A stretch of DNA of 39,475 nucleotides from contig JANYJY010000006.1 in NCBI GenBank assembly GCA_025358295.1, positions 1 through 39,475 on the forward strand, written 5' to 3'. Position numbers and translations under genes: made by a program. Positions within the stretch are counted from its first letter, which is position 1, and each line of letters starts with the position of its first letter. The notes under the pieces were generated by a model that made no database searches, had not been told where the DNA came from, and was given only the letters and a program-made list of their open reading frames with translations. This document shows, piece by piece, positions 7,635-35,314 of the stretch. The DNA comes from Gammaproteobacteria bacterium. Lineage in GTDB: Bacteria; Pseudomonadota; Gammaproteobacteria; Steroidobacterales; Steroidobacteraceae.

Positions 7635-7635
7635 C

Positions 7636-16038: not shown

Positions 16039-16895
16039 GAGGCTAGGATCGTGCTTTGAATTTCCCCGAGTGCATCGATCGACACACGCACCCGATCGCC
16101 GGGTTTCAGATAACGCGGCGGCTTCATGCCGTGACCCGATCCAGACGGTGAACCGGTGGAAATGATATCGCCCGGCTGCAGCGTGATGCCGCGCGAACAC
16201 CAAGACAGTAGCGTCGTGGGGCCATGGACCAAGTCCCCGACGCTGCCATCCTGCCGTAACTCGTCGTTCACCCAGGTCCGGATGCGCAACCCGCGCGGAT
16301 CCGGAATCTCATCGCTCGTGGTGAGCCAAGGGCCTTGCGGCGCGAATCCGTCGCAGCCTTTTCCCAAAACGACAGTGTCGGGGTTAACTAGGGCCCTGAT
16401 TGACAGATCGTTCACGACCCAATAGCCGGCGATGTAGTCGCCAGCGGCGCTTTCCGGCACATCGCGGCATGCGCGCGCGACCACCAAGGCGAGTTCGCCC
16501 TCGTAATCCAGGGTATCGGAAAACCCAGGATGGCGTACCGGGGCAAATGGGCCCTGAACGGTGCCGGGAAGCTTGACGAACAAGCGTGGCTGGATCGGCA
16601 ATGGCACTCCCATTTCGCGCGCGTGGTCCGCATAATTGAGCCCGGCCGCGAAAAAATGCCGCGGCTGTGGAATGGGAGCGTGAAGTTCGACCATGCCGAG
16701 CTCGACGCGCGGCGCGACCAACGCAGCCATATCGAGCTGCCGCCGCCACTTTGGCAACTGCGGCAGCAATCCGCCCAAGGATCGGGGCAATTCCGGAAGC
16801 TCGTGGACGACATCGGCGATGGCTTCGTGGCCTTTGTCGTGCACGACCACCCCAACGCGCGAGCCGCTGCCATCCGAAAAATTGGCGAGCCGCAC
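16035..16895 (-). CDS. Fumarylacetoacetate hydrolase family protein
   Basis: 286 residues. The C-terminal FAH domain has the divalent-metal ligands Glu132 and Glu134 (DYEGELALV) and Asp163 (YWVVNDLSIRA), plus the GDIISTGSPSG loop. Family members hydrolyse C-C bonds of diketo acids (fumarylpyruvate, acylpyruvates), decarboxylate or isomerise ring-cleavage products. The start is GTG at 16895 with a poor ribosome site. It precedes, on the same strand, nothing but the ligase, and follows the membrane-protein gene by nine bases. Which of the FAH reactions it carries out cannot be told. Confidence 0.87.
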   Translation of the reverse strand: MRLANFSDGSGSRVGVVVHDKGHEAIADVVHELPELPRSLGGLLPQLPKWRRQLDMAALVAPRVELGMVELHAPIPQPRHFFAAGLNYADHAREMGVPLPIQPRLFVKLPGTVQGPFAPVRHPGFSDTLDYEGELALVVARACRDVPESAAGDYIAGYWVVNDLSIRALVNPDTVVLGKGCDGFAPQGPWLTTSDEIPDPRGLRIRTWVNDELRQDGSVGDLVHGPTTLLSWCSRGITLQPGDIISTGSPSGSGHGMKPPRYLKPGDRVRVSIDALGEIQSTILAS

Positions 16896-17534: not shown

Positions 17535-17565
17535 TATGTAGGCTCCGGGGATGGTAGGAGACGAG

Positions 17566-18477
17566 ATGGAATTGCTGGACTCTCGGCGCTTGAAGCACTT
17601 TCTTGCCGTATATGACATGCGCAGCATGGGTCATGCGGCGCCGAAGTTATTTTTGACTCAGCCGGCCTTGTCGAAGAGTATTCGTCAGCTCGAGGATGAT
17701 TTGAACGTCAAGCTGTTCGACCGCACTCCCCTCGGGGTGGTGCCCACGGTGTACGGCGATGCGCTGGCGCAGCATGCGCGCGTCATCCGCTCGGAGATGC
17801 GCCATGCCGAAACGGAGATCTCAAATCTTCGCGGCGCGGTTAAAGGCCACGTGGCGGTCGGGGTTGGCCCGAGCGTCGCCGCGAGCTTGATGCCGCTCGC
17901 CACCTCGCTTCTGCGGAAATCCAAGCCGGGCATTACCTTCACCATCAATGAAGGCTTGGTCGACACCATCCTGCCGGCGTTGCGTCACGGTGAAATCGAT
18001 CTTGCCGTGGGCACGTGGCCCCGGCCGGCCGACAGCGATATCAGCGCGGAGACCCTGATCGGCGATCGGGTCTGCGTTGTCGCGGGTCCGCGCCATCCTC
18101 TGACGCGGAAGGATCCGGTGGAGATGTCCGATTTACTGAATTACCCTTGGGTATTGCCGCCGGAAAATCAACGCTTCAGGCAATTACTCGCCGAGACCTT
18201 CCTAAGCAAGGGATTGTCGCCGCCCGTGCCGACGATCACCAGCAATTCGGCCAATTTCATCCGCACTGTGCTGCTGGACAATCAATCCTTGAGTTTTCTG
18301 CCGCTGCAAAGCTTGCCCGCCCGCCAACGGGCCAGCACTTTGGCGCCGCTCGAGGTGCCCGGATTGTCGCGCGAAGTAGAGGTCACCATCGCGATGCGCC
18401 AGCGCGCAGTCGTATCGCCGGCCGCTCATGCACTGATCGCCGCCCTGCGCGAGGTGGCGCACGACACGGCTGCCTGA
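17566..18477 (+). CDS. LysR-family transcriptional regulator
   Basis: 303 residues from ATG 17566, preferred to the ATG at 17551 because GGAG lies five bases before it. An N-terminal winged helix-turn-helix (LKHFLAVYDMRSMGHAAPKL, then LTQPALSKSIRQLEDDLNVKLFDR) is followed by a complete periplasmic-binding-like effector domain (GHVAVGVGPSVAAS to the VTIAMRQRAV end). LysR proteins activate neighbouring catabolic genes on binding a pathway metabolite. Divergent from the membrane-protein/FAH pair and convergent with the long minus-strand operon. Confidence 0.92.
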   Translation: MELLDSRRLKHFLAVYDMRSMGHAAPKLFLTQPALSKSIRQLEDDLNVKLFDRTPLGVVPTVYGDALAQHARVIRSEMRHAETEISNLRGAVKGHVAVGVGPSVAASLMPLATSLLRKSKPGITFTINEGLVDTILPALRHGEIDLAVGTWPRPADSDISAETLIGDRVCVVAGPRHPLTRKDPVEMSDLLNYPWVLPPENQRFRQLLAETFLSKGLSPPVPTITSNSANFIRTVLLDNQSLSFLPLQSLPARQRASTLAPLEVPGLSREVEVTIAMRQRAVVSPAAHALIAALREVAHDTAA

Positions 18478-18502: not shown

Positions 18503-19711
18503 TCAATTCGAAGGCAGGAACGCAGTCATGCCCAACCGCAACATGTCGCGGGTGAAATCGCACGAATAGCCGATCCAGGCATCGTTTAGCCAGCGGGAGG
18601 TCGGAAACTCATCGGTGACGCCGTAGGCGCCTAGTATCTGCAGTGCTCGTTCGGCGTTCCGTATCGCGGCATCGACGGACAGGGTCTTCGACATCGGCGC
18701 CTTCACCGTGGCTGCCGCCATCGGATCGGCGTCGCAGGCGATCGCGGCGTCCCACACCGCGAGGCGCGCTGCATGATAGTCGCAGTACATGTCGGCGAGC
18801 TTCAATGCGACCGCTTGGTGCTGGATGATCGGTACTCCCATGCTCATGCGCTTTTTGGCGTAATCGAGCGCATATTCGTAAGCGGCGCGCGCCAGTCCGA
18901 CAAAGGTCGCCGCAAGGCCTATTCCCATCTGCGGCAGCGCGCCCATGATCTTGGCGCCGTGACCTTCCTCGCCGATGCGCCGGGCCGCCGCGACGCGCAC
19001 CTCGTCGATGATGAGTTCCGCATGATGGCCCATGTGCCATCCCGCCATGCGGGTACGCGTCCCCGGCTGCAAGCCCGGTGCCGTAGCCGGCACGAAGAAT
19101 ACAGAGATGCTCTCCCACAGGGGCCGATCCAAGCTGGTCCGCGCGAGAATGAAGTATTGATCCGCGATGCCGCAGTTGGTGACGAAAGCGGATTTCTGCC
19201 CATTGAGCACATAACTCTCGCCATCGCGGCGCGCGAATGTCTTGATACCCATTTTTGGATTGGGGTCCTGGGTAAAAAGTTCCGAGCCCGCCACATTCGG
19301 CTCGGACAAGGCGCCGGAGAGCACCGTGGGCCGGCTGCAAATGAGGGGCAGGAACTCTTTCTGCTGCGCGAGATTGCCGCCGGCCATGATGATCAACGGA
19401 ACGGTCATGTTCAACGCGAATAAATCCGCTGCGACTGCAACATCGGCTGCTCCCAGCTCCTCAAGCAGAATGACCGCATCGATCATTCTAGCCCCGACCC
19501 CGCCGAAGGCCTCGGGCACCAATAGGCGGGTAAATCCCAGATCCCAACCCTTGTGAAATAAATCCGCGCAAAACGGCCACGGCTCTTGCGCCGTACCCTT
19601 TTCGCGTGCCTTCATCAATCGCGCCGCAGCCGGGGCGATTTCTGCGCACGCGAACTCGCGCGCGGTTCGCTGCAGCAGCTGCTGCTCCTCCGTCAGTGCG
19701 AAATCAATCAT
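18503..19711 (-). CDS. Acyl-CoA dehydrogenase family protein (Asp at the catalytic Glu position)
   Basis: 402 residues with the full acyl-CoA dehydrogenase layout: N-terminal helices (MIDFALTEEQQLLQRTAREF), beta domain (GALSEPNVAGSE, YVLNGQKSAFVTNCGIADQY) and C-terminal helices with AYGVTDEFP. Aligning this end without gaps on SCAD/MCAD puts Asp385 (YSCDFTRD) where those enzymes have the catalytic Glu of IYEGTSEIQ. The family introduces a 2,3 double bond into acyl-CoA using FAD and passes electrons to ETF; the Glu-to-Asp change could alter substrate or make it weak. Last gene of the minus-strand run, six bases after the Tat-subunit gene. Confidence 0.88.
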   Translation of the reverse strand: MIDFALTEEQQLLQRTAREFACAEIAPAAARLMKAREKGTAQEPWPFCADLFHKGWDLGFTRLLVPEAFGGVGARMIDAVILLEELGAADVAVAADLFALNMTVPLIIMAGGNLAQQKEFLPLICSRPTVLSGALSEPNVAGSELFTQDPNPKMGIKTFARRDGESYVLNGQKSAFVTNCGIADQYFILARTSLDRPLWESISVFFVPATAPGLQPGTRTRMAGWHMGHHAELIIDEVRVAAARRIGEEGHGAKIMGALPQMGIGLAATFVGLARAAYEYALDYAKKRMSMGVPIIQHQAVALKLADMYCDYHAARLAVWDAAIACDADPMAAATVKAPMSKTLSVDAAIRNAERALQILGAYGVTDEFPTSRWLNDAWIGYSCDFTRDMLRLGMTAFLPSN

Positions 19712-19717
19712 TGGACC

Positions 19718-20275
19718 TCACCAGTTGCTCGGCGGCACGATGTGCGCCATGTAAGGAATACCGAGCTTGGCGAAGCCCTCGGCGGTGCCGTAAACCACAT
19801 CGATAGCATCCGAGCGCAGTACGAAATAAAAGAGAGGCGCCGGCGGCCCCTCCCACCCATCGGGGTTGCCGCGTTGAATGGCGCGCACGACATCGTCTCG
19901 CTGCGTCCCTGTGAGCACGTGCAAGGGGTGGCGGTGCATCTTGACTGCGGCCGCCTCGACCGATGCGAGGCAGGGTTTATAGAAGGCTGCATAGGGCGGA
20001 GGCACGTCGAGGTAGCGAATCATCAACAGACTGTCGACGGAATTGGCGGCGAGTTGCTGATCAATGTAATGAGTCAACCCGGCCGCCGCCGCGCCCGGCA
20101 CCAAAGCTTCGCCCAGCGCTTCGACGATGCGGGCGTCGGCCGCCGATAAGACGCGCAGCGGCACATCTTGCGCCCTCGCCTGTCGCGGGTTCAGCCATGA
20201 AACCGCGCCGCCCACTTGAAACGCGAGCAGCCCCAGACCGGTGCCCGAAACGAATTGTCGCCTGTCGAGCGCCAC
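19718..20275 (-). CDS. Tat-exported gluconate 2-dehydrogenase subunit 3-like protein
   Basis: 185 residues from a GTG start. The N-terminus has a twin-arginine signal, DRRQFVSG with Arg5-Arg6, then a hydrophobic stretch ending near AQD (about 36). The rest matches the gluconate 2-dehydrogenase subunit 3 (gamma) type: LSAADARIVEALGEALVPG, LMIRYLDVPPPYAAFYK, and a helical C-terminus. In FAD-dependent gluconate, sorbitol or glucose dehydrogenases this small subunit carries the large GMC subunit through the Tat system as a hitchhiker. Two GMC genes without signal peptides lie 6-9 kb upstream in the same island. No cytochrome c subunit is seen. Confidence 0.82.
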   Translation of the reverse strand: MALDRRQFVSGTGLGLLAFQVGGAVSWLNPRQARAQDVPLRVLSAADARIVEALGEALVPGAAAAGLTHYIDQQLAANSVDSLLMIRYLDVPPPYAAFYKPCLASVEAAAVKMHRHPLHVLTGTQRDDVVRAIQRGNPDGWEGPPAPLFYFVLRSDAIDVVYGTAEGFAKLGIPYMAHIVPPSNW

Positions 20276-20284
20276 GGCCGCGTC

Positions 20285-21235
20285 TCACCGAACCTTGAGC
20301 ACTATCTTGCCGCGCGCGCCGCCGGCGTCCGAGGCACGATGGGCCTCCCGGGCATCCTTCAATGCAAGCACTTTGGTGACAACCGGGCGCAAGCGATTCT
20401 GCTCGAACATTGGCCGGATGTGGTCGAGCACGTCGCCGCGCTGATCGAACGCCACTTCGTGACGGGTGACTGCGTGCTCGGCGCACAGGCGCGCCGTGTG
20501 CTCAAGCTCCAATTTATCTTCCCGCAGCACGACGACCATGCGTCCGCCCTTGCGTATTACCTTGTAGGAATCGAGATTCGTTTGGCCGCCGACGCAATCG
20601 AATACCAGGTCGACGTTCGACAGCACGCGCGTGAAATCCTTGGCTTTGTAGTCGATCACGATGGACGCGCCGAGCTCGCGAACAAAATCCACCGCATCGG
20701 TGCTGCAGGTGGCCGCAACGTGAGCGCCGAGCGCGCGCGCAAGCTGCAGCGTGGCGCTGCCTACCCCGCCGGCCCCTGCATGAACGAGAATCAGCTCGCC
20801 GGGGTGAATCAATGCCAGATCGACAATTCCGACCCAGGCGGTCTCGTAGACCATGGGCAAAGAGGCCGCGGCTTCGAAGCTCAGGTTCGACGGCATGCGC
20901 CGCACATTCGCCGCGTCCACGGCGATCTGCTCTGCGTAGCTACCCCAGCGCATGGCCTGTTGCATGCCATACACCCGGTCGCCGACTTCGAGCCCCCACA
21001 CCGCAGGCCCCTTAGCCACGACTACTCCCGCGAAGTCATTCCCCAAGACGTGCGGAAAAGTGAAGGGGTAGAAGTGTTTGAGATAACCTTTGCGAAGTTT
21101 CGCGTCGAAGGGGTTGTAACCCGCGGCGTGCACATCAATGAGCACATCGAAGGGCCCAGGCTGCGGATTTGGAACCTCGCGCCACACCAAGGCGTCCAAA
21201 TCCTGTCCATACCGATCGAGCGTGACTGCTTTCAT
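20285..21235 (-). CDS. Medium-chain NAD(P)H-dependent oxidoreductase (quinone oxidoreductase-like)
   Basis: 316 residues of the MDR superfamily: a GroES-like N-terminal domain (AAGYNPFDAKLRKG, FPHVLGNDFAGVV) and a Rossmann domain with the nucleotide motif VHAGAGGVGSATLQLARALG (about 142-161). The structural and catalytic zinc ligands of alcohol dehydrogenases are absent, pointing to a zinc-free quinone oxidoreductase or enoyl reductase. It would reduce an activated double bond or quinone with NAD(P)H. Closely packed, nine bases after the Tat-subunit start and eleven from the next MDR gene. Confidence 0.86.
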   Translation of the reverse strand: MKAVTLDRYGQDLDALVWREVPNPQPGPFDVLIDVHAAGYNPFDAKLRKGYLKHFYPFTFPHVLGNDFAGVVVAKGPAVWGLEVGDRVYGMQQAMRWGSYAEQIAVDAANVRRMPSNLSFEAAASLPMVYETAWVGIVDLALIHPGELILVHAGAGGVGSATLQLARALGAHVAATCSTDAVDFVRELGASIVIDYKAKDFTRVLSNVDLVFDCVGGQTNLDSYKVIRKGGRMVVVLREDKLELEHTARLCAEHAVTRHEVAFDQRGDVLDHIRPMFEQNRLRPVVTKVLALKDAREAHRASDAGGARGKIVLKVR

Positions 21236-21246
21236 AGGCTGATTCG

Positions 21247-22260
21247 CTACTCCGACGTCTGTGTGCGCACCCGCACCAGCTGCTTGCCAATGGGCTCACC
21301 GCTGAACAATGCCGCAAAAGCCGCAGGAGCGCGTTCGAGGCCCTCGACGCAGTGCTCGAAGCTCTTCAAAGTCCCGGCGGACAATGCGGCGGAAAGGTAC
21401 TCCAGCGCCTCGCCGAAGCGATTCGCATAATCTCCGATCAAAAAGCCGCTGAGCGTGGCGCGTCGGCGGATGATTTGATAAACGCTGCCATACTCCGCTT
21501 GAACCGTCGCAACGTTGTGGTACGCCGATATGTATCCGAACGCGATGATGCGCGCATGGTCGGCTATGCTCGCCAGCACTGAGTTGTGCAGACTGCCACC
21601 GACTGAATCCAAAAAAACAGTCGCGCCACCGGGACAAGCACTTGCCAAATCTGCGTCGAGACCGGCCGATCGATAGTTCACTGCGACGGCTGCGCCCAGC
21701 TCCTCACGCACGAAACGCGCCTGATCGGCACCACCGACAATGCCCACGACGCGGGCACCGACTTCGCGTGCCAGCTGAGCCGCAACTGAGCCGACGGAAC
21801 CGGCCGCGCCGCAAATGACGACCGTGTCGCCGGCGCGAACTTTCGCGGCATCGTGGATCAGAAAATAGGCGGTGATGCCGGACGGCCCAAGCACTCCCAG
21901 AGCCGATTGCAGCGGCGCGTTCGGATTCACCTTGCGCAGTTGCGCACCGGGAACCCGAGCATGCTCCTGCCATCCCAACTCGCCGGCGACCCGGTCCCCT
22001 ACGGTCAAACCGCTGAAGCGCGAGGCGCGCACGATGCCGGCTCCGCGGCCCATAACCACCTCACCCAGTGGCAGTGGCGGCGGAAATTTTGCCGCGCCAT
22101 CCATCCGCAGTCGCGGTGCCGGATCCATCGACAAGCAATGCGTCTCCACGAGGACTTCATCTTCGTTCAGCTCGGTCACGTCGGTCTCAACCAGCTCGAA
22201 ATCCTCCGGTTGCGGCACTCCGCGTGGATAGCGGCTGAGGATAATGCGGCGATTCTTCAA
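21247..22260 (-). CDS. NADPH-dependent alkenal/one reductase-type MDR oxidoreductase (CurA/PTGR-like)
   Basis: 337 residues from a TTG at 22260, chosen because AGGA lies about nine bases upstream and the protein then begins KNRRIILSRYPRG, the usual start of this family. Further signs are LSMDPAPRLRMD, the nucleotide loop VICGAAGSVGSVAAQLARE and FGYISAYHN. Relatives (curcumin reductase CurA, prostaglandin/leukotriene reductases) saturate alpha,beta-double bonds of ketones with NADPH. It is unlike the next MDR gene in sequence, so the two are not recent duplicates. Eleven bases separate it from the hydrolase gene. Confidence 0.85.
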   Translation of the reverse strand: MKNRRIILSRYPRGVPQPEDFELVETDVTELNEDEVLVETHCLSMDPAPRLRMDGAAKFPPPLPLGEVVMGRGAGIVRASRFSGLTVGDRVAGELGWQEHARVPGAQLRKVNPNAPLQSALGVLGPSGITAYFLIHDAAKVRAGDTVVICGAAGSVGSVAAQLAREVGARVVGIVGGADQARFVREELGAAVAVNYRSAGLDADLASACPGGATVFLDSVGGSLHNSVLASIADHARIIAFGYISAYHNVATVQAEYGSVYQIIRRRATLSGFLIGDYANRFGEALEYLSAALSAGTLKSFEHCVEGLERAPAAFAALFSGEPIGKQLVRVRTQTSE

Positions 22261-22271: not shown

Positions 22272-23156
22272 TCAGCTGCCCTGCGCGACGATTGTCGCAC
22301 AATCAGCCGCCAGCCCGCCCGTCGTCTCGCTGCTAAGGGCGTGCTTACGCAAGAAATCCATGAGCAGCCGGTTAAACTCTGCGGCCCTGTCCAAATTTGA
22401 TATGTGCGAGGCACCAGGAATGACGGCGTAATGGGCACCGGGAATGCGGTTTGCCATCTCGAGCGCATATGCCGGGGTCGCAATCCGGTCGTGCTCGCCG
22501 ACCAAAACCAAGACGGGCACGGCAATTTGCTCGAAGGGCAGGAATTTCGAATAGCGCGTGACCGTGTCCAATGTCTTCAGGTAAGAACCGGCACGCAGCT
22601 GGGCGAGACTCTCCAGCATAAGGTCGCTCGCGTCTCGCGCGGTCCCCGGGCCGATCAGGCTCGCCAGCACCTGCGGCGCTATGTCGCGCGGCGTCTTGCC
22701 CTCCAGCAGCGGGCGTTTGCGAATTGCCAAGAAAGCGTCAATTTCCTCCGCGTTGTTGACCCGCGAATTGCCGGCACTGGTGTCCGCCAATGTCAGCGTC
22801 GCGACCCGATCGGGCCATTTTCCGTAGAAATCGAGCGCAATGCGCCCACCCATCGATATTCCGACGAGATGCGCTCGGCGCACGCCGAAGCTGTCGATGA
22901 GGCGCCCAAGATCTCGTGTGAAATCCGTGAAGTCCAGCGAACCTTCGTAGTCCTCGCTGTCGCCGTAACCTCGGGCATCCCAGGCCGCAGCGGTGAATTC
23001 GGCGCCAACGACATCCAGTTGGCGCACCCAGTTCTTGCGGTTGCCGCCGATGCCGTGCAAAAACACGACCAGCGGACCGCTGCCGGTTACGTCCACTGCA
23101 AGAACGGGCGCAGGGCCGAGCTTTACCAGCCGGTGACGCGCAACATTAGCGTTCAG
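22272..23156 (-). CDS. Alpha/beta-fold hydrolase (possible ring-cleavage-product hydrolase)
   Basis: 294 residues if started at CTG 23156, which overlaps the NicX-like stop as CTGA and has GGGAGA six bases upstream. GTG at 23096 is the alternative, giving 274 residues. Family signs: oxyanion HGIGGNRKNW, nucleophile elbow GISMGGR, acid in GEHDRIATP and His in GASHISN. Such hydrolases include enol-lactonases, C-C hydrolases and the N-formylmaleamate deformylase NicD, which acts right after NicX in nicotinate degradation. Direct coupling to a nicX-like gene makes a NicD-like step attractive, but the sequence alone does not show it. Confidence 0.84.
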   Translation of the reverse strand: MNANVARHRLVKLGPAPVLAVDVTGSGPLVVFLHGIGGNRKNWVRQLDVVGAEFTAAAWDARGYGDSEDYEGSLDFTDFTRDLGRLIDSFGVRRAHLVGISMGGRIALDFYGKWPDRVATLTLADTSAGNSRVNNAEEIDAFLAIRKRPLLEGKTPRDIAPQVLASLIGPGTARDASDLMLESLAQLRAGSYLKTLDTVTRYSKFLPFEQIAVPVLVLVGEHDRIATPAYALEMANRIPGAHYAVIPGASHISNLDRAAEFNRLLMDFLRKHALSSETTGGLAADCATIVAQGS

Positions 23157-24199
23157 GCGAGATCTCCCTGCAACCTGCCCTCGGCAATGACGGTGCTTCC
23201 GTCCAACTCGATGGTGCAGTTGCGGATGGGGAGATCGAAATGACCGAGGGTGTAGCGATTTGCCGAAGGATTGGCGCCGGTCGAGTAGAGAAAGTTGCCG
23301 GCAAATGCACGCAATTCCGTGCCGTTGATTTCGCCCTTGTCGTACATGACGAGCGCGTCCCAGCGCGCGCGCGGATTCATGCCCCAGCCGACGTGCGACA
23401 CGCCGTAGGCATTGCGGTCTCCCCACGCCGCGAAATAGCTTTTCATCAATTCCGCATCGAGCCCTTTGCCATCGATGTCGATGACGAAGTCATCCTCGAT
23501 GGTGAGCCGAACGGGATTCTCGAGATAGCGCTTGAATGTCAGATTCACATCGCCCGTGTCGAGCACCAAGACGCCGTTGACAGAATGTTCCGGCGGGAAA
23601 CAGCTACAAATGCCTCCCGGCCAGCTGGAGAGTTGCCCGGCATTGAAACTGGCGCCGAAATTACCGCCCACCCGCGCGCCCTCCAGCACGATATTAAGAT
23701 CGGTTCCTGCCTTCGAGCGCACCCGCATGCGCTTGGTGGCCAGGATGAGTTCACGGCCTTTCTGAACTTTCGGAAACAGCGCCGGGTCGGTTTTCAGCCG
23801 CTCCAGAACCTCGGGGTGTTCGTTGCTGATGTACATGGCGCGCACCCCCGCCTTCAGAAGCCGAGGTGTCTCGGGGGCGTGCATGATGCCTTCCACGGTG
23901 CAATCGGCCACGAACCTGACAGCCAGCAGCGCTGCCATGACGGGCTCGAGACCCTGAATGGCATGCGAGGAACCGGTGGATCGAACCGCAACTGGGGCAT
24001 CCTGCGCGGGCGTGGGAATGATGATATGAAAGGGACGGGCGCCGATCCTTTGCAACGCCAGTTCAGCAAGCTGCACGTTGATCGCTCGTGACTGCGATTC
24101 GGACAGGATGGCTACCGTTTCACCGCTTTGCACCTTGCAAAGGCGGAAAACATCGGCAAACGTGTCTATCCACTTACCTTCGATTCTGTCGCTCAGCAT
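23153..24199 (-). CDS. NicX-like Fe(II) dioxygenase (2,5-dihydroxypyridine 5,6-dioxygenase fold, M29-like)
   Basis: 348 residues, the size of NicX. The metal ligands of Pseudomonas putida NicX (His265, His318, Asp320) correspond to His269 in GVSHVGWGMNPRARW and His320 and Asp322 in LGHFDLPIRNC. Other shared stretches are RVRSKAGTDL, VLVLDTGDVNLTFKRY and AFAGNFLYSTGAN. NicX opens the ring of 2,5-dihydroxypyridine to N-formylmaleamate with O2. Similarity is clear over the full length but moderate, so the substrate may be another hydroxylated N-heteroaromatic compound. GGGGAG precedes the ATG. Upstream and downstream genes are other pathway enzymes; the NicE and NicF partners are absent. Confidence 0.85.
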   Translation of the reverse strand: MLSDRIEGKWIDTFADVFRLCKVQSGETVAILSESQSRAINVQLAELALQRIGARPFHIIIPTPAQDAPVAVRSTGSSHAIQGLEPVMAALLAVRFVADCTVEGIMHAPETPRLLKAGVRAMYISNEHPEVLERLKTDPALFPKVQKGRELILATKRMRVRSKAGTDLNIVLEGARVGGNFGASFNAGQLSSWPGGICSCFPPEHSVNGVLVLDTGDVNLTFKRYLENPVRLTIEDDFVIDIDGKGLDAELMKSYFAAWGDRNAYGVSHVGWGMNPRARWDALVMYDKGEINGTELRAFAGNFLYSTGANPSANRYTLGHFDLPIRNCTIELDGSTVIAEGRLQGDLA

Positions 24200-24275
24200 G
24201 CCATCTCCCCGCGCACCGATGGGCGCGACCCATTTTCAGGTGACTGAAGCAAGAACAGCAAATTCCTTTTCAACT

Positions 24276-24291
24276 CCGGGCCATAACCCGG
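24276..24291 (-). other. Small hairpin in the 99-base gap before the NicX-like gene
   Basis: CCGGG-CCATAA-CCCGG forms a five-pair stem just after the hydratase stop. No T-run follows on the minus strand, so at most it is a weak pause or RNA-processing site between the two halves of the operon. A separate promoter for the NicX-like gene in this gap is possible. Confidence 0.25.
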
Positions 24292-24298
24292 CGTCGCA

Positions 24299-25087
24299 TC
24301 AATCCCGAATCACCCGCATGCTGACCTTGCCGAGCGTGGAGTATTCAGCCTCGAGGGTATCTCCCGCCGCGATAGCTACATGGGAAGTCATTGCGCCGCT
24401 AGCCACACACTCGCCGGCCTTGAGGCCCCGTCCCTGAACTCGCAAGGCGTTGGCGAGCCATAGCAGGGCATTGAGCGGATCCCCCAGCACGGCGCTACCG
24501 ATGCCTGCGCCGCAGGCGACGCCGTTTCTTGTCAGAGTGACGCGCTCGAGTGACAAGTCGGCACCGCCGCCCAGTCGTAATCCCGGGCCTCCCCTGACGA
24601 AACCTTGAGTGACGCCGTTGTCCGCAATCAGACATAACCCACCCACTTCAAAGGGCCGGGCGTAGGCCGGTCGGTTGATTTCCAGCAGCGGCAATGCCAA
24701 ATCGACCGCCGCCAGCACCTCCGACATCAAGTGCGGCGTACTGCGCGGCGGTAGGTCCGCCCCGAGCAAAAAGCCGATTTCCGGTTCCACCGAGGATGAT
24801 TGGCCTGCGAGATTCCACTCTCGCCCGCCGGCCACGATGTTGCGCTCGAAGGCGCGACCGTAGAATGGTTCGACCAGTCCGAGTATTTTTTGCCCCTCGA
24901 CGGAGGTCGCTCCTATTTTATACCCCGCGATGCCGCCCAAACGGGGTTCGAGGGCAGCAACGACCAGATCGGCCACCGCATAGGCCTGGGAAATGTCGCG
25001 TGGTGCCAAATCCTCGGGGACGTTCTCGATGGGCGCCGCCCCGGCTCGCACGGCCACCAGACGTGACGCAAGTTCGCCGATACTCAT
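24299..25087 (-). CDS. 2-keto-4-pentenoate hydratase/oxalocrotonate decarboxylase family protein
   Basis: 262 residues of the hydratase branch of the FAH superfamily. Visible marks are GYKIGATSVEGQKILGL, the metal site around SSSVEPEIGFLLGADLP, DLALPLLEINRPAY and GSAVLGDPLNALLWLAN. Family enzymes hydrate 2-hydroxypenta-2,4-dienoate or decarboxylate 4-oxalocrotonate after meta-cleavage, using Mg or Mn. ATG 25087 was chosen: GAGGAG lies seven bases upstream and it overlaps the preceding gene's stop (ATGA). It suggests that the island yields a short unsaturated keto acid. Confidence 0.87.
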   Translation of the reverse strand: MSIGELASRLVAVRAGAAPIENVPEDLAPRDISQAYAVADLVVAALEPRLGGIAGYKIGATSVEGQKILGLVEPFYGRAFERNIVAGGREWNLAGQSSSVEPEIGFLLGADLPPRSTPHLMSEVLAAVDLALPLLEINRPAYARPFEVGGLCLIADNGVTQGFVRGGPGLRLGGGADLSLERVTLTRNGVACGAGIGSAVLGDPLNALLWLANALRVQGRGLKAGECVASGAMTSHVAIAAGDTLEAEYSTLGKVSMRVIRD

Positions 25088-25971
25088 GATGCGCTCCTCA
25101 GTGAATCGCGTCTGCCGCGCAACCAATCGCCGAGAGTCGTGGATGGTGTCCCGAACAAACGGTTAGCTTCCTCCGGATCGCCATGCTCTCCGATGGCCGC
25201 GAACGCGGCAAACAGATCTGCGGCGAAGCGCAGGTCCTGGTTTCTCGTGAGTGTGGCAATGATACGCGCGACAGGTAGAGGCAGCGTCGTGACCTTGAGT
25301 TCGGGATGCAGGACCGACACGTAGAGCCACAAGGCATCCCGCATCGTGAACGCCTGCGGCCCGAATAGATATAACGCTTGGTTTTGCGCCTGCTCGCTAT
25401 CCAGGGCGCGCGCCGCCATGGCGGCGTAGTCCGCCGCGGCCAGGTAGTGCAAAAGATGCGGTTGGCGCCCAAGCACCGATGCGCGACCGTCGCGCACGAA
25501 CAGTGGCAGAGATTCCATGAAGTGAGTAGCTCGGAAGAACGTCCACGGCACGCCGCTTTGGGCTATGGATACTTCGACGGATCGCTTGATCCGGACGGGC
25601 AGAAATCGGTTATTCGCGTCCGTCATCTGCCCAGCCCCCGACAAATAAGTAATCCGCCTCAGTCCATGGCGGCGTGCCGCGTCGGCGCAATTCGCCGCTC
25701 CCTGCACTTCCTGAGTATCGTAGCTTGCTGGCGTGTTCGTTCCGCGCAAGTTCAAATGCACGTGGCCGCATCCTTCAAAGGCCTGGTCCAAAGTTTCCGC
25801 TTGTGTGACATCGCCGGTCACGAATTCGAAATCCGGTCCGAGCTTGGCGCGAGCCCGCGCGGCGTCTCGAACCAGGCAGCGAACCTTCCAGCCTTCCGTG
25901 AGCAGGCGCTGCGCCACAGGCGCTCCCAACATGCCCGTCGCGCCCACGACCAGTACTCGATCAGCACGCAT
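25084..25971 (-). CDS. NmrA-like NAD(P)-binding atypical short-chain dehydrogenase
   Basis: 295 residues from ATG 25971 (GGAG eight bases upstream). An N-terminal nucleotide motif VLVVGATGMLGAPVAQRLL (GxxGxxG) is followed by VRCLVRDAARARAKL and a NmrA/SDR-a5-like body (YLSGAG, WTFFRATHFMESL). The YxxxK catalytic pair of classical SDRs is not evident, so it may be a reductase of unusual type or a redox sensor. It is the first gene of the minus-strand operon, divergent from the plus-strand GMC gene across a 118-base spacer. Confidence 0.83.
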   Translation of the reverse strand: MRADRVLVVGATGMLGAPVAQRLLTEGWKVRCLVRDAARARAKLGPDFEFVTGDVTQAETLDQAFEGCGHVHLNLRGTNTPASYDTQEVQGAANCADAARRHGLRRITYLSGAGQMTDANNRFLPVRIKRSVEVSIAQSGVPWTFFRATHFMESLPLFVRDGRASVLGRQPHLLHYLAAADYAAMAARALDSEQAQNQALYLFGPQAFTMRDALWLYVSVLHPELKVTTLPLPVARIIATLTRNQDLRFAADLFAAFAAIGEHGDPEEANRLFGTPSTTLGDWLRGRRDSLRSAS

Positions 25972-26089: not shown

Positions 26090-27694
26090 ATGAGACAAAG
26101 TGCGGCCACCGCTGCGGCGGGAACCCCTCTGGGCCAGCATGTAGATGCGGTGATTGTCGGCGCGGGCGCCGCCGGCAGTCTTTGGGCCGAGCGACTCGCG
26201 CGGGCGGGCAAATCGGTCATCGTTCTGGAAGCCGGTCCCGCTTGGGAACTTAAAGACATGAAGAGTTCGCAAATTTGGGCACGACGACTCAAATGGGGCG
26301 GACCTGAAGTGTTGAACGGCGGCAAGGACCGGTTTGGCCACAACATGAGCACCGGCTGGGGATTGGGCGGCGCCGCGTTGCATCACTATGCCGGTTGGCC
26401 CCGGTTGCATGCCGAAGATTTTCGCACCCAATCCTTGTACGGTAGAGCTGTCGACTGGCCGATCGAATACGCTGAATTGCAAGCCTGGTACGACAGCGTT
26501 CAGGCGGAGATGATGCTCTCCGGCGATGCGCAAGCTGAGATCTGGCGCCCCCCAGGCGCGCCCTATCCACAGCCGCCACTGCGCACCTTTCGCCAAGGGG
26601 AGCTGATTACGCAAGGGTTCCATAAACTGGGCATGAGGGTGGCGCCCGCGCCGCTCGCCATTCTCTCCCAACCTGTGCCCGGGCGCATGGCCTGCAAGTA
26701 CGATGGCTGGTGCGATGCTGGTTGTCCGATTGGCGCTCTGGCCAATCCATTGATTACGCATATACCCCGCGCCGTCGCAGCGGGGGCACATTTCGAGACG
26801 CGCGCGTCGGCCACTCGTGTGCTCATCGACGGACGAGGGCGCACTGCAGGTGTCGTTTGGCGGGATGCCGCTGGCGGCGAGCATCGCCAGCGCGCGGACC
26901 TGACCATCCTGGCCGCATCCACCGTGCAGAACGTCAGATTGCTGCTCGCCTCTGCCGAACCGCGCCACCCTCGAGGTATCGCCAACGGCAGCGGACTGCT
27001 CGGCCGAGGTTTTACGTGTCACACCGTGGCGAGTGCGTACGGAATCTTTAATGAGCCGACGGACAATTATCTGGGCGTGACCGCCGGCCAGTTGATCTCG
27101 CAGGATCGCTACTCGAAGACCGCCCGCGGACACGACGGCGCCTTCGGCAGTCATCAGTGGGGCATCGCTCCGGCCTTGAAGCCGAACGATTTGCTGGGAA
27201 TCGCCAATGCGCATTCGGAACTCTGGGGCGCCGACCTTGCCCGATTCCTGGAACGCGACGGCCCGCGACTGGGCACCCTGTCCGCCGTCTGCGAAACGCT
27301 GCCGGGATCTGAGCGCCGCATCGAGCTCGCAGCCGAGCGGGACATGAACGGCATGCCGATGGCCAAGATCGTCAATACGCTCGACCGCGATGCGCTCGAC
27401 CTGTATGCGAACGCGAATCGGCAGGGGCGAGAAATTCTCGATGCCGCGGGCGCCAACTCCACGTGGAACGGCATGATGGCGATGACGCACGCGCTCGGCG
27501 GCACCGTCATGGGCAAGGATGCGGGCAGCTCGGTTTGCGATAGTTACGGGCACGCCCACGAGGTGGCGAATCTCATCGTCGCAGGCGGCAGTCTCTTTCC
27601 CACGGCGGGCGGAGGAGGCCCGACATTCACCATATATGCTCTCGCGGATCGCGCGAGCGATCACGTGCTCAAGCATTGGGCAAGCTACATCTGA
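26090..27694 (+). CDS. GMC-family FAD oxidoreductase, paralogue A
   Basis: 534 residues. The FAD-binding GAGAAG lies at 24-29 with VIVLEAGP after it; the body includes NMSTGWGLGGAALHHYAGWP and the catalytic-His region MTHALGGTVMG. Cys202, Cys208 and Cys212 (CKYDGWCDAGC) form a cluster reminiscent of the Fe-S-binding region of FAD-glucose/gluconate dehydrogenase large subunits. At the second GMC catalytic position (usually Asn or His before PTxTI) the sequence is GGGGPTFTI. No signal peptide is seen, so export, if any, would need the Tat subunit at 19718-20275. Likely oxidises an alcohol or sugar-like group, passing electrons to a respiratory acceptor. Confidence 0.87.
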   Translation: MRQSAATAAAGTPLGQHVDAVIVGAGAAGSLWAERLARAGKSVIVLEAGPAWELKDMKSSQIWARRLKWGGPEVLNGGKDRFGHNMSTGWGLGGAALHHYAGWPRLHAEDFRTQSLYGRAVDWPIEYAELQAWYDSVQAEMMLSGDAQAEIWRPPGAPYPQPPLRTFRQGELITQGFHKLGMRVAPAPLAILSQPVPGRMACKYDGWCDAGCPIGALANPLITHIPRAVAAGAHFETRASATRVLIDGRGRTAGVVWRDAAGGEHRQRADLTILAASTVQNVRLLLASAEPRHPRGIANGSGLLGRGFTCHTVASAYGIFNEPTDNYLGVTAGQLISQDRYSKTARGHDGAFGSHQWGIAPALKPNDLLGIANAHSELWGADLARFLERDGPRLGTLSAVCETLPGSERRIELAAERDMNGMPMAKIVNTLDRDALDLYANANRQGREILDAAGANSTWNGMMAMTHALGGTVMGKDAGSSVCDSYGHAHEVANLIVAGGSLFPTAGGGGPTFTIYALADRASDHVLKHWASYI

Positions 27695-27720: not shown

Positions 27721-29304
27721 TCATGTGTAGTCACCCCAGTGCCGGGCAATATGATCGGCAGAGCGAAGCGCGATCGCATGCAGGGTAAACGTAGGACTGG
27801 TGCCGCCAGATTGAGGAAAAAGTCCCGCTCCTGCAAGGACCAAGCCCCGCACGTCATGACTTCGTCCAAACGTGTCGCAGACGGAACGTGCCGCATCGGA
27901 ACCCATTACCGTACCGCCGCTGATGTGGCCGCCCGCCAATGGACCGTTCCACTGTGACCGTGCTCCCGCCGCCTCCATTATGGATACACCTTGAACTTTG
28001 ACATACGAGGTAAGTGCGAGCGTATCGGGATCGTGTCGATAAAACGTTCGAGCCAACGGCGTCCCATAGACATCCTTGCGATGCGGGTCCAATTCGACGC
28101 GATTCGATTCGGACGCCGCGCCGCCGACGAACCCCACCATAAAGGCTAGATGCTGTGTCGCGTCGCGTATGAATGCGTGCAGCGCTTCTCCGTACAGTTC
28201 CGGCCGAGTGGCGGCGATGCCGAAGATGTCGTTCGGTTTCGCCGCAGGCGCGATTTGCCATTGATACGCGCCAAACAGCTCCGGACGCCCGGGATGCGTG
28301 AACGCGGAATGATGATAGTACTGGCCTGAATTCACTCCCATCCAGACTTCCGTGCGCTCGGCGAACAGTCCGTAAGCAAAACACATCGCGTCCGACAGCA
28401 AGAATTTCCCGACCAAGCCGCTGCGATTTGCGATCCCGGGATTCACGCCGCCGCCCGGTCGGCGCGATTCGCCAGAGCACAACAGGATGCGAGGATTCTG
28501 AATAAAGGATGCCGCCAGTATGGTTAAGTCCGCGCGCGCCTCGCGCGGCTGGCCATTGAAGTAGTACTGAACGCCCAGGGCCCGCCCGGCCGAGTCGGTC
28601 AACACTCGGCTGACCGATGCGCCCGTGCGTATTTCAATTCGGCGATCTCGAGCCCACTTGAGGTAAGTCACCAAGGGGTTGGCAAGAGCGCCGATGGGGC
28701 ATCCGGCATCGCACCAGCCGTCGTACAGACAGGCAGCGCGGCCTTTGTAACCTGTGGAATTGATGGCGGCGGGCATCGGCGAAACAGGAAGCCCGAGTCG
28801 ATGGAAACCCTGCGCCAGCAAGTCGCCGTGGCGAAAAGTGCGCAGCGGCCCCATAGGATATGGCTGCCCCGCCCCGCGCCAGGGTTCGGCCGACGCGTCC
28901 CCGGAAATCCCAACCTCGGCTTGCACCTGATCGTACCAGGGCCGCAGATCGTCGTAGGTGAGGCCCCAATCCCGGCCCCGACCGTGACGGCTGTGCAGGT
29001 CGAACACATCGACCGGGAAGCGCGGCCAAGTTGCGTAGTGATGGTAGGCAGCGCCGCCGAGCCCGGAGCCCGTGGATACATTGTGAGCGATGGGATTCGG
29101 TCCATCCACCAAGACCGGAGCGCCGCCCCACTTGTGGCGGCGCGCCCATACGCTCGAACTCAACATGTCAGCCTGTGATTTGTTCGGGCCCGCCTCGAGT
29201 ACCAGAATTTGTTTTCCGGCACGCGACAGCCGATCCGCGTAAACACCGCCGGCGGCGCCAGCGCCAACGATGATTACGTCATGCGAGGACCGCTCAATGT
29301 CCAA
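27721..29304 (-). CDS. GMC-family FAD oxidoreductase, paralogue B
   Basis: 527 residues, tail-to-tail with paralogue A (26 bases between stops) and clearly related to it: HDVIIVGAGAAGGVYADRL at the FAD site, NVSTGSGLGGAAYHHYATWP, and the same cysteine pattern CLYDGWCDAGC. The His region is GGHISGGTVMG, and the second catalytic position reads GGTSPTFTL. The start is TTG at 29304, overlapping the TonB-receptor stop by 11 bases; GGAGAGG lies rather far upstream, so the start is uncertain. Lacks a signal peptide. Cotranscription with the receptor suggests it acts on the imported compound. Confidence 0.86.
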   Translation of the reverse strand: MDIERSSHDVIIVGAGAAGGVYADRLSRAGKQILVLEAGPNKSQADMLSSSVWARRHKWGGAPVLVDGPNPIAHNVSTGSGLGGAAYHHYATWPRFPVDVFDLHSRHGRGRDWGLTYDDLRPWYDQVQAEVGISGDASAEPWRGAGQPYPMGPLRTFRHGDLLAQGFHRLGLPVSPMPAAINSTGYKGRAACLYDGWCDAGCPIGALANPLVTYLKWARDRRIEIRTGASVSRVLTDSAGRALGVQYYFNGQPREARADLTILAASFIQNPRILLCSGESRRPGGGVNPGIANRSGLVGKFLLSDAMCFAYGLFAERTEVWMGVNSGQYYHHSAFTHPGRPELFGAYQWQIAPAAKPNDIFGIAATRPELYGEALHAFIRDATQHLAFMVGFVGGAASESNRVELDPHRKDVYGTPLARTFYRHDPDTLALTSYVKVQGVSIMEAAGARSQWNGPLAGGHISGGTVMGSDAARSVCDTFGRSHDVRGLVLAGAGLFPQSGGTSPTFTLHAIALRSADHIARHWGDYT

Positions 29305-31678
29305 ATCGGTAGTGAACCTCTCCGCCCCACTCGCGCGGCGGGCTGACGCTCGCGAACGCCACGCCCAATGCAGCCGTCACGTCCTGCGCATTGGTATGAT
29401 AAAACTTGTTGGCCAGATTCAGGCCGTATGCCGCCACCGACCAGTGACCGCCGCTGAAATCGTAGGTCGCCCGACCGTTGACCAGCCCATAGCCGCCCTG
29501 TCGGTTGATGGGAGTGTTCACGGCCTCGTACCAGAACTCCGATCGGAATGAGTAATCGCCGCGCAATGTCAGCTTTCCGGAAGCGACGGCCCAGCTGTAC
29601 TGCGCGCCCAGGCTGCCGTTCAAGCGCGGAGTCAGCGGCAAGTGCATGCCATATTCGATGCCGGATCCGACAGGTACCGACTGGTATTGATCCTTGGTGT
29701 ACCCCAAGCCGGCCTGCAGCTCGAATGCCGCGACCGGGCGTGCCTGCAACTCAACTTCGGCGCCGCGAATGCGCGACGACGCCGTGACCGTATCGAAAAA
29801 GCCCGATGCCTGGTCCAGCGCCAGCAACTGGATTCCCTTGTAGTTTTCCTGGAACAGCGCAACGTTTACTCGCACGCGATTGTCGGCGAATTGAGTCTTT
29901 GCGCCGAGTTCATAGGAATCAATCTTTTCCGGGTCAAATGCGCTTATCGCGCCGAACTGCCCCGTGTGAACGTTCGGGCTCGGCCGGCCGTTGAAGCCGC
30001 CGCTCTTAAACCCCTTCGAATAAGACAGGTAGGTCAGCACCTCATCGGAGGGCTTCCATTCGATGTCGGCCTTGGGGGTGACCTGACTCCAATCCTTGTT
30101 GTACGCGGTAGGAACCGTGTTATTGGGATTCAACGGCGACAAGGTATACAGGATCGCAGGCGGCAGGCCCGCGAGGTTCGCAACTCCGGCCGAATTGTCA
30201 ATGAAGAAATCATAGTCCTGTTGCTTAGTCTCTTTGGTCCAGCGCAGCCCCAGCGTGCTCGCCCACTGATCGGCGAATTTGATGGTTGTTTGTCCAAACA
30301 GCGCTTTCGCCTTGGTGTCCAGGGTGAACGCCTGGTGGTTCACGATTTTCTTGTCGACCCCGGGTGTGGCGTAGCTCTGGCCGCCCGCAAAATTACACAC
30401 TGGGTAGACAAAGTAAAACGGATCGCCGGGAGGCGCCGCCGCCGGGAACGGCAGGCAGCCGTTGTTGCCGCCGAGCGAGACTATGTTGATGTTGGCGTTG
30501 TACTCTTGATAGTAATAGGCGCCGAGCAGCCATTTCGCTGGTCCCGAGTTGCCGGACAACTGCAACTCCTCGCTGAACTGATGCTGCTTGTCGGCAAAGC
30601 CGCCTTCATAGAACGAATATGGAGTGGCATCGTAGTCTGTGGCCTGAAACTGGCTCAGGCGTCGGTACGCACTGATCGACTTGAGTTTCGCGCCGCCGAC
30701 ATCCCAATCCAAGGTCAGCGAGATACCCTTGATGTCGTAATCCTTGCGTGGGTCGATCGAGGAATTATTCACATAGGGGTCACCTAGGTTTAGATATTGA
30801 CCCATGCCGGCGGGCAGCGGCACGCCAAACGGCGAAAACACCGCAGGGTTGTAGCCAACCAGGATGGTGTGTTGCGAGGTTCCGGTGATGCGGGTGATAT
30901 CCCCCGCGAGCGTGAGCGAGAAGGCGTCGCCTGGCACCCACTTGTACTTTGCGTTCGCTCCCCATTGATTGGTCGTGTCGAAAATGGTGCCGTCGCTCGC
31001 GCGCCGCGCCCAGCCATTCTGATCACGGAAATTCGCGGACACGAGCAGGCCCTGGGTATTGCTGATCGGCAGATCGAGAGAGCCGCGAACCTGCCGCAGA
31101 TTGCGGCTACCGCCCGTAATGCTCAAGTCGCCGCCAAACTCACGGCCTGGATCGCGGGTCGTGATACTGACGGCTCCGCCAATGGTGTTGCGGCCGAACA
31201 GCGTGCCTTGCGGGCCTCGTAATACTTCGATGCGCTGCACATCCGATGAGTCGATGGACGCTCCCATGACACGGCCCAGATAAACGCCGTCGACATAAGT
31301 GGCCACCCCCGGATCGGTGGCCGGGTTGAGGTCTGTCTGGCCGACGCCGCGGATGAAATAGTAGGCATCGTTGCCGCCAGTCGGCCCAGGATTCGAGAGG
31401 AAATTCGGCGTGAACTGCGCCGCATCCCCGACATTGCGGATATTGAGCTTTTCTATGTCCGCGGCTTGGAATGCGGAGACGGCGATGGGCGTATCTTGGA
31501 GCCGCTCCGCGTAGCGGCGCGATGTGACCACCACTTCAGCGAGGGCATCGGAGTTAACCGTCGTCGGCGCTGAAATTTGTGCCTGCGGATCGGTTGACGC
31601 AGCCATGGCTCCCGCGCTCAAAGCGACACTGATTCCCGCAGCGATCGGCGTCAGAGCCCCTGAAATAATTCGTCCCAT
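29294..31678 (-). CDS. TonB-dependent outer-membrane receptor
   Basis: 794 residues from ATG 31678, preferred to ATG 31684 because GGGGGA then stands six bases upstream. A signal peptide (about 1-26, ending AGAMA) is followed by a TonB-box-like EVVVTSRR, the plug domain (TPIAVSAFQAADIEKLNI, VLRGPQGTLFGRNTIGGAV) and a 22-strand-type barrel ending VHYRFGH. Receptors of this type in catabolic islands import aromatic or steroid-like substrates rather than only siderophores. It overlaps the GMC-B gene downstream, indicating one transcript. The 173-base gap to the next gene upstream probably holds its promoter. Confidence 0.93.
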   Translation of the reverse strand: MGRIISGALTPIAAGISVALSAGAMAASTDPQAQISAPTTVNSDALAEVVVTSRRYAERLQDTPIAVSAFQAADIEKLNIRNVGDAAQFTPNFLSNPGPTGGNDAYYFIRGVGQTDLNPATDPGVATYVDGVYLGRVMGASIDSSDVQRIEVLRGPQGTLFGRNTIGGAVSITTRDPGREFGGDLSITGGSRNLRQVRGSLDLPISNTQGLLVSANFRDQNGWARRASDGTIFDTTNQWGANAKYKWVPGDAFSLTLAGDITRITGTSQHTILVGYNPAVFSPFGVPLPAGMGQYLNLGDPYVNNSSIDPRKDYDIKGISLTLDWDVGGAKLKSISAYRRLSQFQATDYDATPYSFYEGGFADKQHQFSEELQLSGNSGPAKWLLGAYYYQEYNANINIVSLGGNNGCLPFPAAAPPGDPFYFVYPVCNFAGGQSYATPGVDKKIVNHQAFTLDTKAKALFGQTTIKFADQWASTLGLRWTKETKQQDYDFFIDNSAGVANLAGLPPAILYTLSPLNPNNTVPTAYNKDWSQVTPKADIEWKPSDEVLTYLSYSKGFKSGGFNGRPSPNVHTGQFGAISAFDPEKIDSYELGAKTQFADNRVRVNVALFQENYKGIQLLALDQASGFFDTVTASSRIRGAEVELQARPVAAFELQAGLGYTKDQYQSVPVGSGIEYGMHLPLTPRLNGSLGAQYSWAVASGKLTLRGDYSFRSEFWYEAVNTPINRQGGYGLVNGRATYDFSGGHWSVAAYGLNLANKFYHTNAQDVTAALGVAFASVSPPREWGGEVHYRFGH

Positions 31679-31857
31679 TCGCATTCCCCCTTCCAGTCAT
31701 GATCGGCCGCCGCTCACTCGTGGCGCGCCCACATCCCGATCGTTGCATAGTCAGGTCATGAATATCTAATTCCTTGGGCGTCGGTATCCATAACCGGCAG
31801 CTATCCCCTATGGCATAACAAAGCGCGAGTTCAGGCCGCCGCTCGCAGGGCTGCCGC

Positions 31858-35301: not shown

Positions 35302-35314
35302 ACCAGTTTGCGCA

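Follow-up and report, generated by a model that had tools for sequence, protein, structure and literature searches.

The best described counterpart of the enzyme considered here comes from the nicotinate (nic) pathway. NicX binds its iron through H265, S302, H318 and D320; E177 and H189 grip 2,5-dihydroxypyridine where its N-H and C=O lie, and H105 binds the substrate too (PMC7910607, cited here and below from the parts of the text available to us). The E177A variant retains 2.7% of activity, H189A 6.9% and the double mutant none, and C76 and E308 are placed at the channel (PMC7910607). In the two nic clusters that we examined, nicX is divergent from nicC-nicD-E-F. For the breakdown of 3,4-dihydroxypyridine, a dioxygenase (KpiC), an alpha/beta hydrolase (KpiB) and a fumarylacetoacetate hydrolase (FAH) family protein (KpiD) have been proposed, the KpiD step not being shown in the portion of that account available to us (PMC7356986). 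Here we describe a 39,475-nucleotide stretch of contig JANYJY010000006.1 from a Steroidobacteraceae bacterium (the window), which encodes a NicX-like protein at 23153..24199 on the minus strand; the 348-residue frame given for it in an earlier sequence-only reading is confirmed. We consider it probable that this protein opens rings as a dioxygenase with a single Fe(II), that its pocket has been rebuilt for a substrate ring different from 2,5-dihydroxypyridine, and that it forms the core of a conserved catabolic cluster that we call type II.

Iron site and substrate pocket of the NicX-like protein

Searching PDB sequences with the window protein (phmmer) returned NicX (7cn3) at E 2.8e-54 over residues 13-341, with the next row at E 0.17, and a profile of 42 family members had NicX as its sole PDB match at E 0.01 (E 1.9e-83). 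An AlphaFold2 model built on an alignment from the window and genome contigs (mean pLDDT 92.2, pTM 0.89) matched NicX chain 7cn3_C in Foldseek at E 2.9e-39, with TM scores of 0.91/0.90 and about 32% identity, and also matched four M29 peptidase chains at E 1.6e-12 to 2.1e-11, with query-length TM scores of 0.51-0.61 and 12-13% identity. The window protein had no Pfam match at E 1e-3, nor at E 10, and no NCBIfam match at E 1e-3, nor at E 1. Its own genome carries one copy of the gene at E 0.001. Pfam likewise left unmatched the other family members scanned (L064 and L021; L and G numbers are our handles for loci and genomes) and two nic-cluster NicX rows (L019 8001-9011, L020 5001-6011), and NCBIfam left unmatched the three rows scanned.

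An M29-type metallo-aminopeptidase would agree with the distant fold similarity (query-length TM 0.51-0.61) and with the label 'peptidase M29' on plasmid relatives, but the predicted model reaches TM 0.91 with NicX. PF02073 is not matched by the window protein at E up to 10, a weak test in that the two nic-cluster NicX rows go unmatched too; L006, one of two remote rows scanned, does match it, below the cut-off. The four remote rows L004-L007 lack the equivalents of S306 and R297, two residues of the window protein discussed below, and the neighbours of the window gene encode oxidoreductases, hydrolases and coenzyme A (CoA) enzymes. We rejected the peptidase reading on fold, family and ligand evidence and hold it to be very improbable. 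As judged from sequence and predicted fold, the window protein is a homologue of NicX with a NicX-type iron site rather than an M29 peptidase.

The four iron ligands of NicX are kept in the alignment as H269 (H265), S306 (S302), H320 (H318) and D322 (D320), and R297 and H107 pair with NicX R293 and H105. Three of the ligands (His269, His320, Asp322) had been recognized in the sequence-only reading, which missed the serine. The substrate-holding pair is not kept: E177 is replaced by N180 and H189 by S192. These features were counted over 110 rows, made up of seven type II rows (window, L021, L026, L030, L048, L051 and G280, where L021 lies on the same contig as G043, also represented by L013 and L014) and 103 others, with the remote, fragment or nic-cluster rows L003-L007, L011, L012, L019 and L020 omitted. 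The six kept sites are invariant in 110/110 rows. Asn at the E177 position together with Ser or Thr at the H189 position occurs in 7/7 type II rows and 0/103 others; Asn alone is found in three of the others (L084, L117, L118), each with the His kept, and 101 of the 103 have His at the H189 position, Tyr standing there in the remaining two (L056, L090). Among the omitted rows, the E177 position holds Gln in L011 and L012 and Glu in L019, L020 and the fragment L003, with His kept, and the remote rows L004-L007 have Gly and Phe at the two pocket positions. Ten of the 348 columns split type II from the 103 others (77, 142, 149, 150, 180, 181, 192, 199, 284 and 311): columns 180 and 192 are the E177 and H189 positions, 181 adjoins E177, and 77 and 311 adjoin C76 and E308.

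Retention of the iron ligands argues for O2 activation, and loss of the lactam clamp (E177/H189) argues against 2,5-dihydroxypyridine. We therefore think it very likely that the protein works like NicX, yet we do not file it as NicX, because we looked for the specificity feature of that enzyme, the E177/H189 pair, and found it replaced. On this residue pattern the pocket appears to be rebuilt for another ring, and 2,5-dihydroxypyridine is an unlikely substrate. The sequence-only reading had already proposed a non-nicotinate setting, probably catabolic and probably with a different substrate; the changed pocket upholds that proposal with stronger evidence than was then at hand.

The type II clade and its gene cluster

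A scan of genome contigs found at least 565 relatives of the NicX-like protein, the best 80 of which are 58-73% identical to it and come from Alpha-, Beta- and Gammaproteobacteria, Acidimicrobiia, SAR324 and others; taken as the best of at least 565, these 80 loci lean towards the window protein. Type II was first noticed by gene context in five of the 80 and then tested by residues and tree; it is defined here from the same data used to test it. Among the 94 sequences aligned first, the Asn and Ser/Thr pair occurs exactly in the window, L021, L026, L030, L048 and L051. With the pocket columns left out, type II forms one clade on a 93-row tree (bootstrap 99, SH-aLRT 93, 100% of 200 bootstrap trees). 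When NicX was added and the tree rooted on it, type II still held together and the two nic-cluster rows (L019, L020) lay apart. The phylogeny against NicX that the sequence-only reading had called for thus separates type II from NicX, its scope being just these two NicX rows, which root the tree from outside the 93-row family and at which long branches meet, with long-branch warnings. The rooted tree dropped 22 of 119 rows, namely L003-L007 (five rows, remote or fragmentary) and 17 near-duplicates, and the pocket-free tree 26, namely the same 22 with L011, L012, L019 and L020. In G280 (L101), from another family of the class and 72% identical, the residue pair was seen first and the context analysed after; its surroundings hold FAH, LysR, acyl-CoA dehydrogenase, GMC, GMC small subunit, hydrolase, hydratase, NmrA and CoA ligase proteins, with no CurA or quinone-reductase match there. 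A possible intermediate is L065 10001-13104, a neighbour of type II on the rooted tree in which the H189 position still has His and the L104 position has Gln; behind one extra frame it carries a hydrolase 49% identical to that of the window.

The gene set of the window recurs around NicX-like genes in six other genomes. In the list below, presence refers to the seven type II clusters (tblastn E 1e-8 over stretches of about 20-39 kb, so that absences may reflect truncation).

13669..15330, minus strand: protein that we take to be AMP-dependent acyl-CoA ligase-like, from its sequence and its tblastn matches to AMP ligases; 5 of 7 (54-64% relatives in 4 of the 6 others)
15400..16038, plus strand: SnoaL-4 domain protein (family scan); 4 of 7
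16035..16895, minus strand: FAH family enzyme (E 2.4e-64); 6 of 7
17551..18477, plus strand: candidate regulator that we take, from its sequence, to be of LysR type; 6 of 7 (48-65% relatives in 4 of the 6 others, 25% in L048)
18503..19711, minus strand: acyl-CoA dehydrogenase (family scan); 6 of 7
19718..20275, minus strand: gluconate-2-dehydrogenase subunit-3-like protein (family scan), probable GMC partner, with an N-terminal RRQF that is presumably Tat-like; 5 of 7
20285..21235, minus strand: quinone/enone reductase, PIG3-like MDR (family scan); 6 of 7
21247..22260, minus strand: CurA/leukotriene-reductase-type enone reductase, with an inferred TTG start at 22260 (longest frame from 22302); 6 of 7
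22272..23156, minus strand: alpha/beta hydrolase, PcaD-like, with a CTG start that lies within the stop codon (TGA) of the NicX-like gene; 7 of 7
23153..24199, minus strand: NicX-like putative Fe(II) dioxygenase of the type II clade, 348 residues (PDB 7cn3 match, iron ligands kept, N180/S192 for NicX E177/H189); 7 of 7
24299..25087, minus strand: 2-keto-4-pentenoate-hydratase/decarboxylase family enzyme, with an ATG at 25087 overlapping the NmrA stop (longest frame from 25126); 7 of 7
25084..25971, minus strand: NmrA-like NAD(P)-binding reductase (family scan); 4 of 7
26090..27694, plus strand: GMC oxidoreductase, nearest solved structures FAD glucose dehydrogenase (6a2u) and fructose dehydrogenase; GMC in 5 of 7
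27721..29304, minus strand: second GMC oxidoreductase, by similarity to the first
29294..31684, minus strand: protein that we take to be TonB-dependent-receptor-like; 27-44% matches (one over 184 residues) in 4 of the 6 others
31858..35403, minus strand: 2-oxoacid:ferredoxin oxidoreductase-type protein (POR and DUF6537); 2 of 7 (window and G043)
36710-38188: FMO-like protein, no match in the six other type II clusters

The families that the sequence-only reading had assigned to the hydratase (longest frame 24299-25126), the NmrA-like protein and the CurA-type and quinone-reductase-type proteins stand. A DHDPS-family protein occurs in three of the seven clusters, the window lacking one, and within the 80 loci CurA-type matches are found solely in L021, L026, L030, L048 and L051. 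One carrier of a NicX-like gene, Variovorax sp. J22P271, is cultured; the one paper found that names it is a species description from ginseng rhizosphere, and no substrate is given in the part of it available to us (PMC12396923). Towards the left end, window positions 978-3061 and 5020-10803 hold what we take to be arsenic genes (resembling arsenate reductase, a channel and ArsI) and an operon for heavy-metal efflux of the RND type.

Two gene junctions are overlapping: NmrA and hydratase share ATGA, and the NicX-like gene and the hydrolase share CTGA, as had been observed from the sequence, the CTG lying at 23156-23154 and the TGA being the stop of the NicX-like gene. A non-standard CTG start of the hydrolase is likely because of this overlap, the GGGAG lying 7 nt upstream and the ATGA read at the same place in the relatives L022, L026 and L064; in L013 and L030 the hydrolase starts further downstream. 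PcaD-type models match the hydrolase best, above BphD/HsaD models, with 2xua as the best solved chain. Its identity to the hydrolases of the six other type II clusters is 46-57%, and to those of other loci mostly 25-40% (L065, 49%). Its match to NicD is short and weak (27% over 109 residues, E 1.5e-6), and the Asp of its VGEHD motif is absent at the aligned place in two NicD rows. On these two grounds we rejected the hydrolase as a NicD orthologue, and the earlier likening of the pair to NicX-NicD is not supported, nicX being divergent from nicC-nicD in the two nic clusters examined.

The absence of NicE and NicF that the sequence-only reading had claimed is borne out: neither matches the window (tblastn E 1e-5), and nothing NicE-like turned up elsewhere in the genome (a control record was positive), NicF having been searched for in the window and the fetched loci. 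At E 1e-5 none of the type II clusters holds a homologue of NicE, NicF, NicA or NicC; NicD gives weak matches of 24-26% in G043, L030 and L048, NicB one partial match in G043, and NicC partial matches alone (26-45%) in the window's own genome. Among the nitrogen-handling types searched (NicE, NicF, nitrilase, isochorismatase, RidA, glutamine synthetase), none is conserved in type II clusters, a RidA-like frame occurring in L030 alone, about 9.6 kb away. An ordinary 2,5-dihydroxypyridine 5,6-dioxygenase (NicX/Hpo/HpdF type) serving an unusual degradation pathway would explain why NicX is the sole significant PDB relative by sequence and why the iron site is the same. With E177 and H189 both replaced, the window protein apart from the two nic-cluster rows on the tree rooted on them, and NicE, NicF, NicA and NicC homologues at E 1e-5 lacking from the clusters and a NicE-like gene from the genome, we find such an enzyme improbable.

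A putative ring-opening pathway and its substrate

The reading that suits the locus best is a ring-opening pathway not yet characterised, for which we infer catalysis, step order and substrate as follows. The substrate would be taken up across the outer membrane, and the GMC protein with its small subunit may oxidize an alcohol (or a sugar group) on it before ring opening. Fission of the ring by the NicX-like enzyme would then consume O2, and the ring-opened product would be hydrolysed by the translationally coupled alpha/beta hydrolase. Addition of water and cleavage of a C-C bond could follow through the hydratase and FAH-family enzymes, or through the DHDPS-family protein in three clusters, with the enone reductases removing double bonds and a side-chain acid being metabolised via the CoA ligase and acyl-CoA dehydrogenase. 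The hydrolase, hydratase, FAH protein and enone reductases would fit the processing of an unsaturated ring-opened product. We expect the substrate to be a hydroxylated, side-chain-bearing ring lacking a 2-oxo lactam, such as a heterocycle of the 3,4-dihydroxypyridine type or a carbocycle. Whether the ring contains nitrogen we leave open, as no searched nitrogen-handling enzyme is conserved and the residues with which NicX holds N-H and C=O are gone.

An N-heteroaromatic ring that has no 2-oxo lactam, a substituted 3-hydroxy-4-pyridone for instance, could be opened by a Kpi-like logic in which hydrolase and FAH protein suffice and no dedicated amidase is needed to release the nitrogen. Both NicX and HpdF have a pyridine ring as substrate (PMC7910607, PMC7356986, both seen in part), and by analogy the use of the same partner families by KpiC-KpiB-KpiD for 3,4-dihydroxypyridine would favour such a ring (PMC7356986). 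On Cupriavidus necator pENH92 (L130 6708-12390), a 47% relative of the hydrolase has an LLM flavoenzyme, RidA and a flavin reductase as neighbours, in a locus that also holds ABC transporter genes and a ring-hydroxylating oxygenase. We take this locus to resemble a Rut-like heterocycle pathway with pyrimidine-ring opening, which would again favour nitrogen. Set against these points, KpiC is of a different family, and the searched nitrogen-handling genes are not conserved in type II clusters, L030 alone having a RidA-like frame; an N-heteroaromatic substrate is possible but on balance doubtful.

A meta-cleavage pathway consists of a dioxygenase, an alpha/beta hydrolase, a hydratase and an aldolase, and family scans place members of both the alpha/beta hydrolase and the dienoate hydratase families in the window. 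The NicX-like enzyme may replace the extradiol dioxygenase in a pathway of this kind for a carbocyclic substrate (dioxygenase, alpha/beta hydrolase, 2-hydroxydienoate hydratase, aldolase). By analogy, the occurrence of hydrolase and hydratase in 7/7 clusters, FAH in 6/7 and DHDPS-family proteins in 3/7 would suit meta-cleavage logic. The lactam-holding residues are gone, and a kynureninase-like gene sharing the NicX-like locus in eight sister-lineage loci of two genera hints at aminobenzoate chemistry in the family at large. No classical extradiol dioxygenase was found among the 14 window proteins scanned, a set that leaves aside the left 13 kb and some frames. However, no NicX-family enzyme is known to us to cleave a carbocycle, PcaD models outscore BphD/HsaD models on the hydrolase, the same 14 proteins include no classical hydroxy-oxovalerate aldolase, and the window has no DHDPS-family gene. 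Overall we see a carbocyclic substrate as a possibility that is rather unlikely. Tentatively, and with more doubt than conviction, we suggest that the NicX fold serves quite generally to open rings, in hundreds of members not yet characterised, and that the type II clade, with Asn/Ser-Thr in place of the lactam clamp, acts on a carbocyclic or other non-lactam ring in a complete meta-cleavage-like pathway, where it would stand in for an extradiol dioxygenase.

Several points weigh against a rebuilt dioxygenase at the core of a conserved type II cluster. Limited literature searches found no published activity for the type II clade or the broad family. Five of the ten discriminating columns (142, 149, 150, 199, 284) have no recognised link to the pocket, and the 72% identity of G280 would by itself have allowed it to be guessed as type II. 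GMC and CoA ligase are absent from two of the seven clusters and NmrA and SnoaL from three, perhaps because the stretches are short, and the other hydratases are just 34-40% identical to that of the window and possibly do not catalyse one orthologous step. No ring hydroxylase was seen among the shared genes, the FMO-like protein of the window having no match in the other six, which leaves the origin of the substrate unexplained. With the specificity residues replaced, the iron site invariant and the gene context shifting with the pocket, the range of rings open to this fold becomes directly testable. If the carbocyclic or non-lactam reading is true, a NicX-type enzyme would for the first time be seen to act on something besides 2,5-dihydroxypyridine, as far as limited literature searches show.

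Type I cassettes and comparison with known systems

The wider family is large; Pfam and NCBIfam are blind to it in the rows scanned, and four plasmid records, among relatives reaching 53% identity, are annotated 'peptidase M29'. At E 1e-60 a relative is carried by 8 of 369 genomes of the class and 19 of 398 of the phylum (own genome included in both counts); of 196 genomes of the order, five match at E 1e-10, two of them (G043 and the window's own genome) with high identity. When plasmids were searched with the GMC, hydrolase and NmrA proteins, no annotated version of the cluster showed up among the 12, 12 and 10 best matches listed, and two plasmid neighbourhoods of hydrolase relatives contain no NicX-like gene by annotation. 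Limited literature searches, with results mostly off topic, turned up no paper about NicX-like proteins of this group.

The commoner arrangement among the 80 loci, which we call type I, combines a NicX-like dioxygenase, an alpha/beta hydrolase, an acyl-CoA-dehydrogenase-like flavoprotein and an AMP ligase. It is widespread in most of L022-L100 (except L026, L030, L048 and L051), in Proteobacteria and some Acidimicrobiia, and we found no description of it. Across the 80 loci, an alpha/beta hydrolase is matched in 60, the acyl-CoA-dehydrogenase-like flavoprotein of an Aminobacter locus in 56 (a few weakly, at 21-24%) and the AMP ligase query in 53, mostly at 24-31%. An Aminobacter locus (pAA02; L008 8263-20376) sets its NicX-like gene amid cupin, FAH, carbon-nitrogen hydrolase and flavin reductase genes, together with acyl-CoA-dehydrogenase-like, glutamine-synthetase-family and APC permease genes, a context with nitrogen-handling genes. 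Kynureninase-like and putative-cyclase-family genes share the type I locus in seven Pandoraea loci and one Bradyrhizobium metagenome-assembled genome (L064 8011-8655 and 6715-7995; L087 6784-7386 and 4552-5781; also L067, L077, L078, L079, L082 and L085), the family names coming from the scan of L064. The kynureninase-like, cyclase, flavin reductase, flavoprotein and AMP ligase neighbours give hints of a type I substrate of the anthranilate type; two anthranilate-related papers, each seen in part, serve as background alone and are not used as support (PMC9613470, PMC3534580).

Compared with known systems, the type II locus shares individual parts with several. The type I cassettes (Pandoraea, Polaromonas, Bradyrhizobium, Roseibium, Acidimicrobiia) have the same protein family and iron site and often an adjoining alpha/beta hydrolase, and differ in the His at the H189 position and in their partners, an acyl-CoA-dehydrogenase-like flavoprotein, an AMP ligase and in some a flavin reductase. 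The pairing of a GMC large subunit with a gluconate-2-dehydrogenase-3-like small subunit is that of the FAD glucose and fructose dehydrogenase complexes (PDB 6a2u, 7w2j). PcaD, the 3-oxoadipate enol-lactonase (PDB 2xua), provides the best solved and model matches of the hydrolase, which nonetheless scores 122.9 bits against an equivalog cut-off of 255.85. NicD, the N-formylmaleamate deformylase, is likewise an alpha/beta hydrolase whose locus holds a NicX-type gene, and differs in sequence (27% over 109 residues) and, in two rows, in lacking the Asp of VGEHD. KpiC-KpiB-KpiD of the 4-hydroxypyridine pathway of Arthrobacter sp. IN13 follow the same logic of dioxygenase, alpha/beta hydrolase and FAH protein, whereas KpiC is an amidohydrolase-family rather than a NicX-like protein and the other Kpi genes listed in the available part of that account differ (PMC7356986). 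A 'NicX' of Bacteroides concerns, in the portion of the source available, a protein related there to NicA1, and we set it aside as an unrelated namesake (PMC11288164). From NicX of Pseudomonas putida KT2440 (PDB 7cn3, 7cup, 7cnt) the window protein differs in its overall sequence (about 32% identity), its replaced E177 and H189, the long branches between them on the tree and a surrounding without nic genes, and with it the window protein shares the fold, the four iron ligands and the equivalents of R293 and H105.

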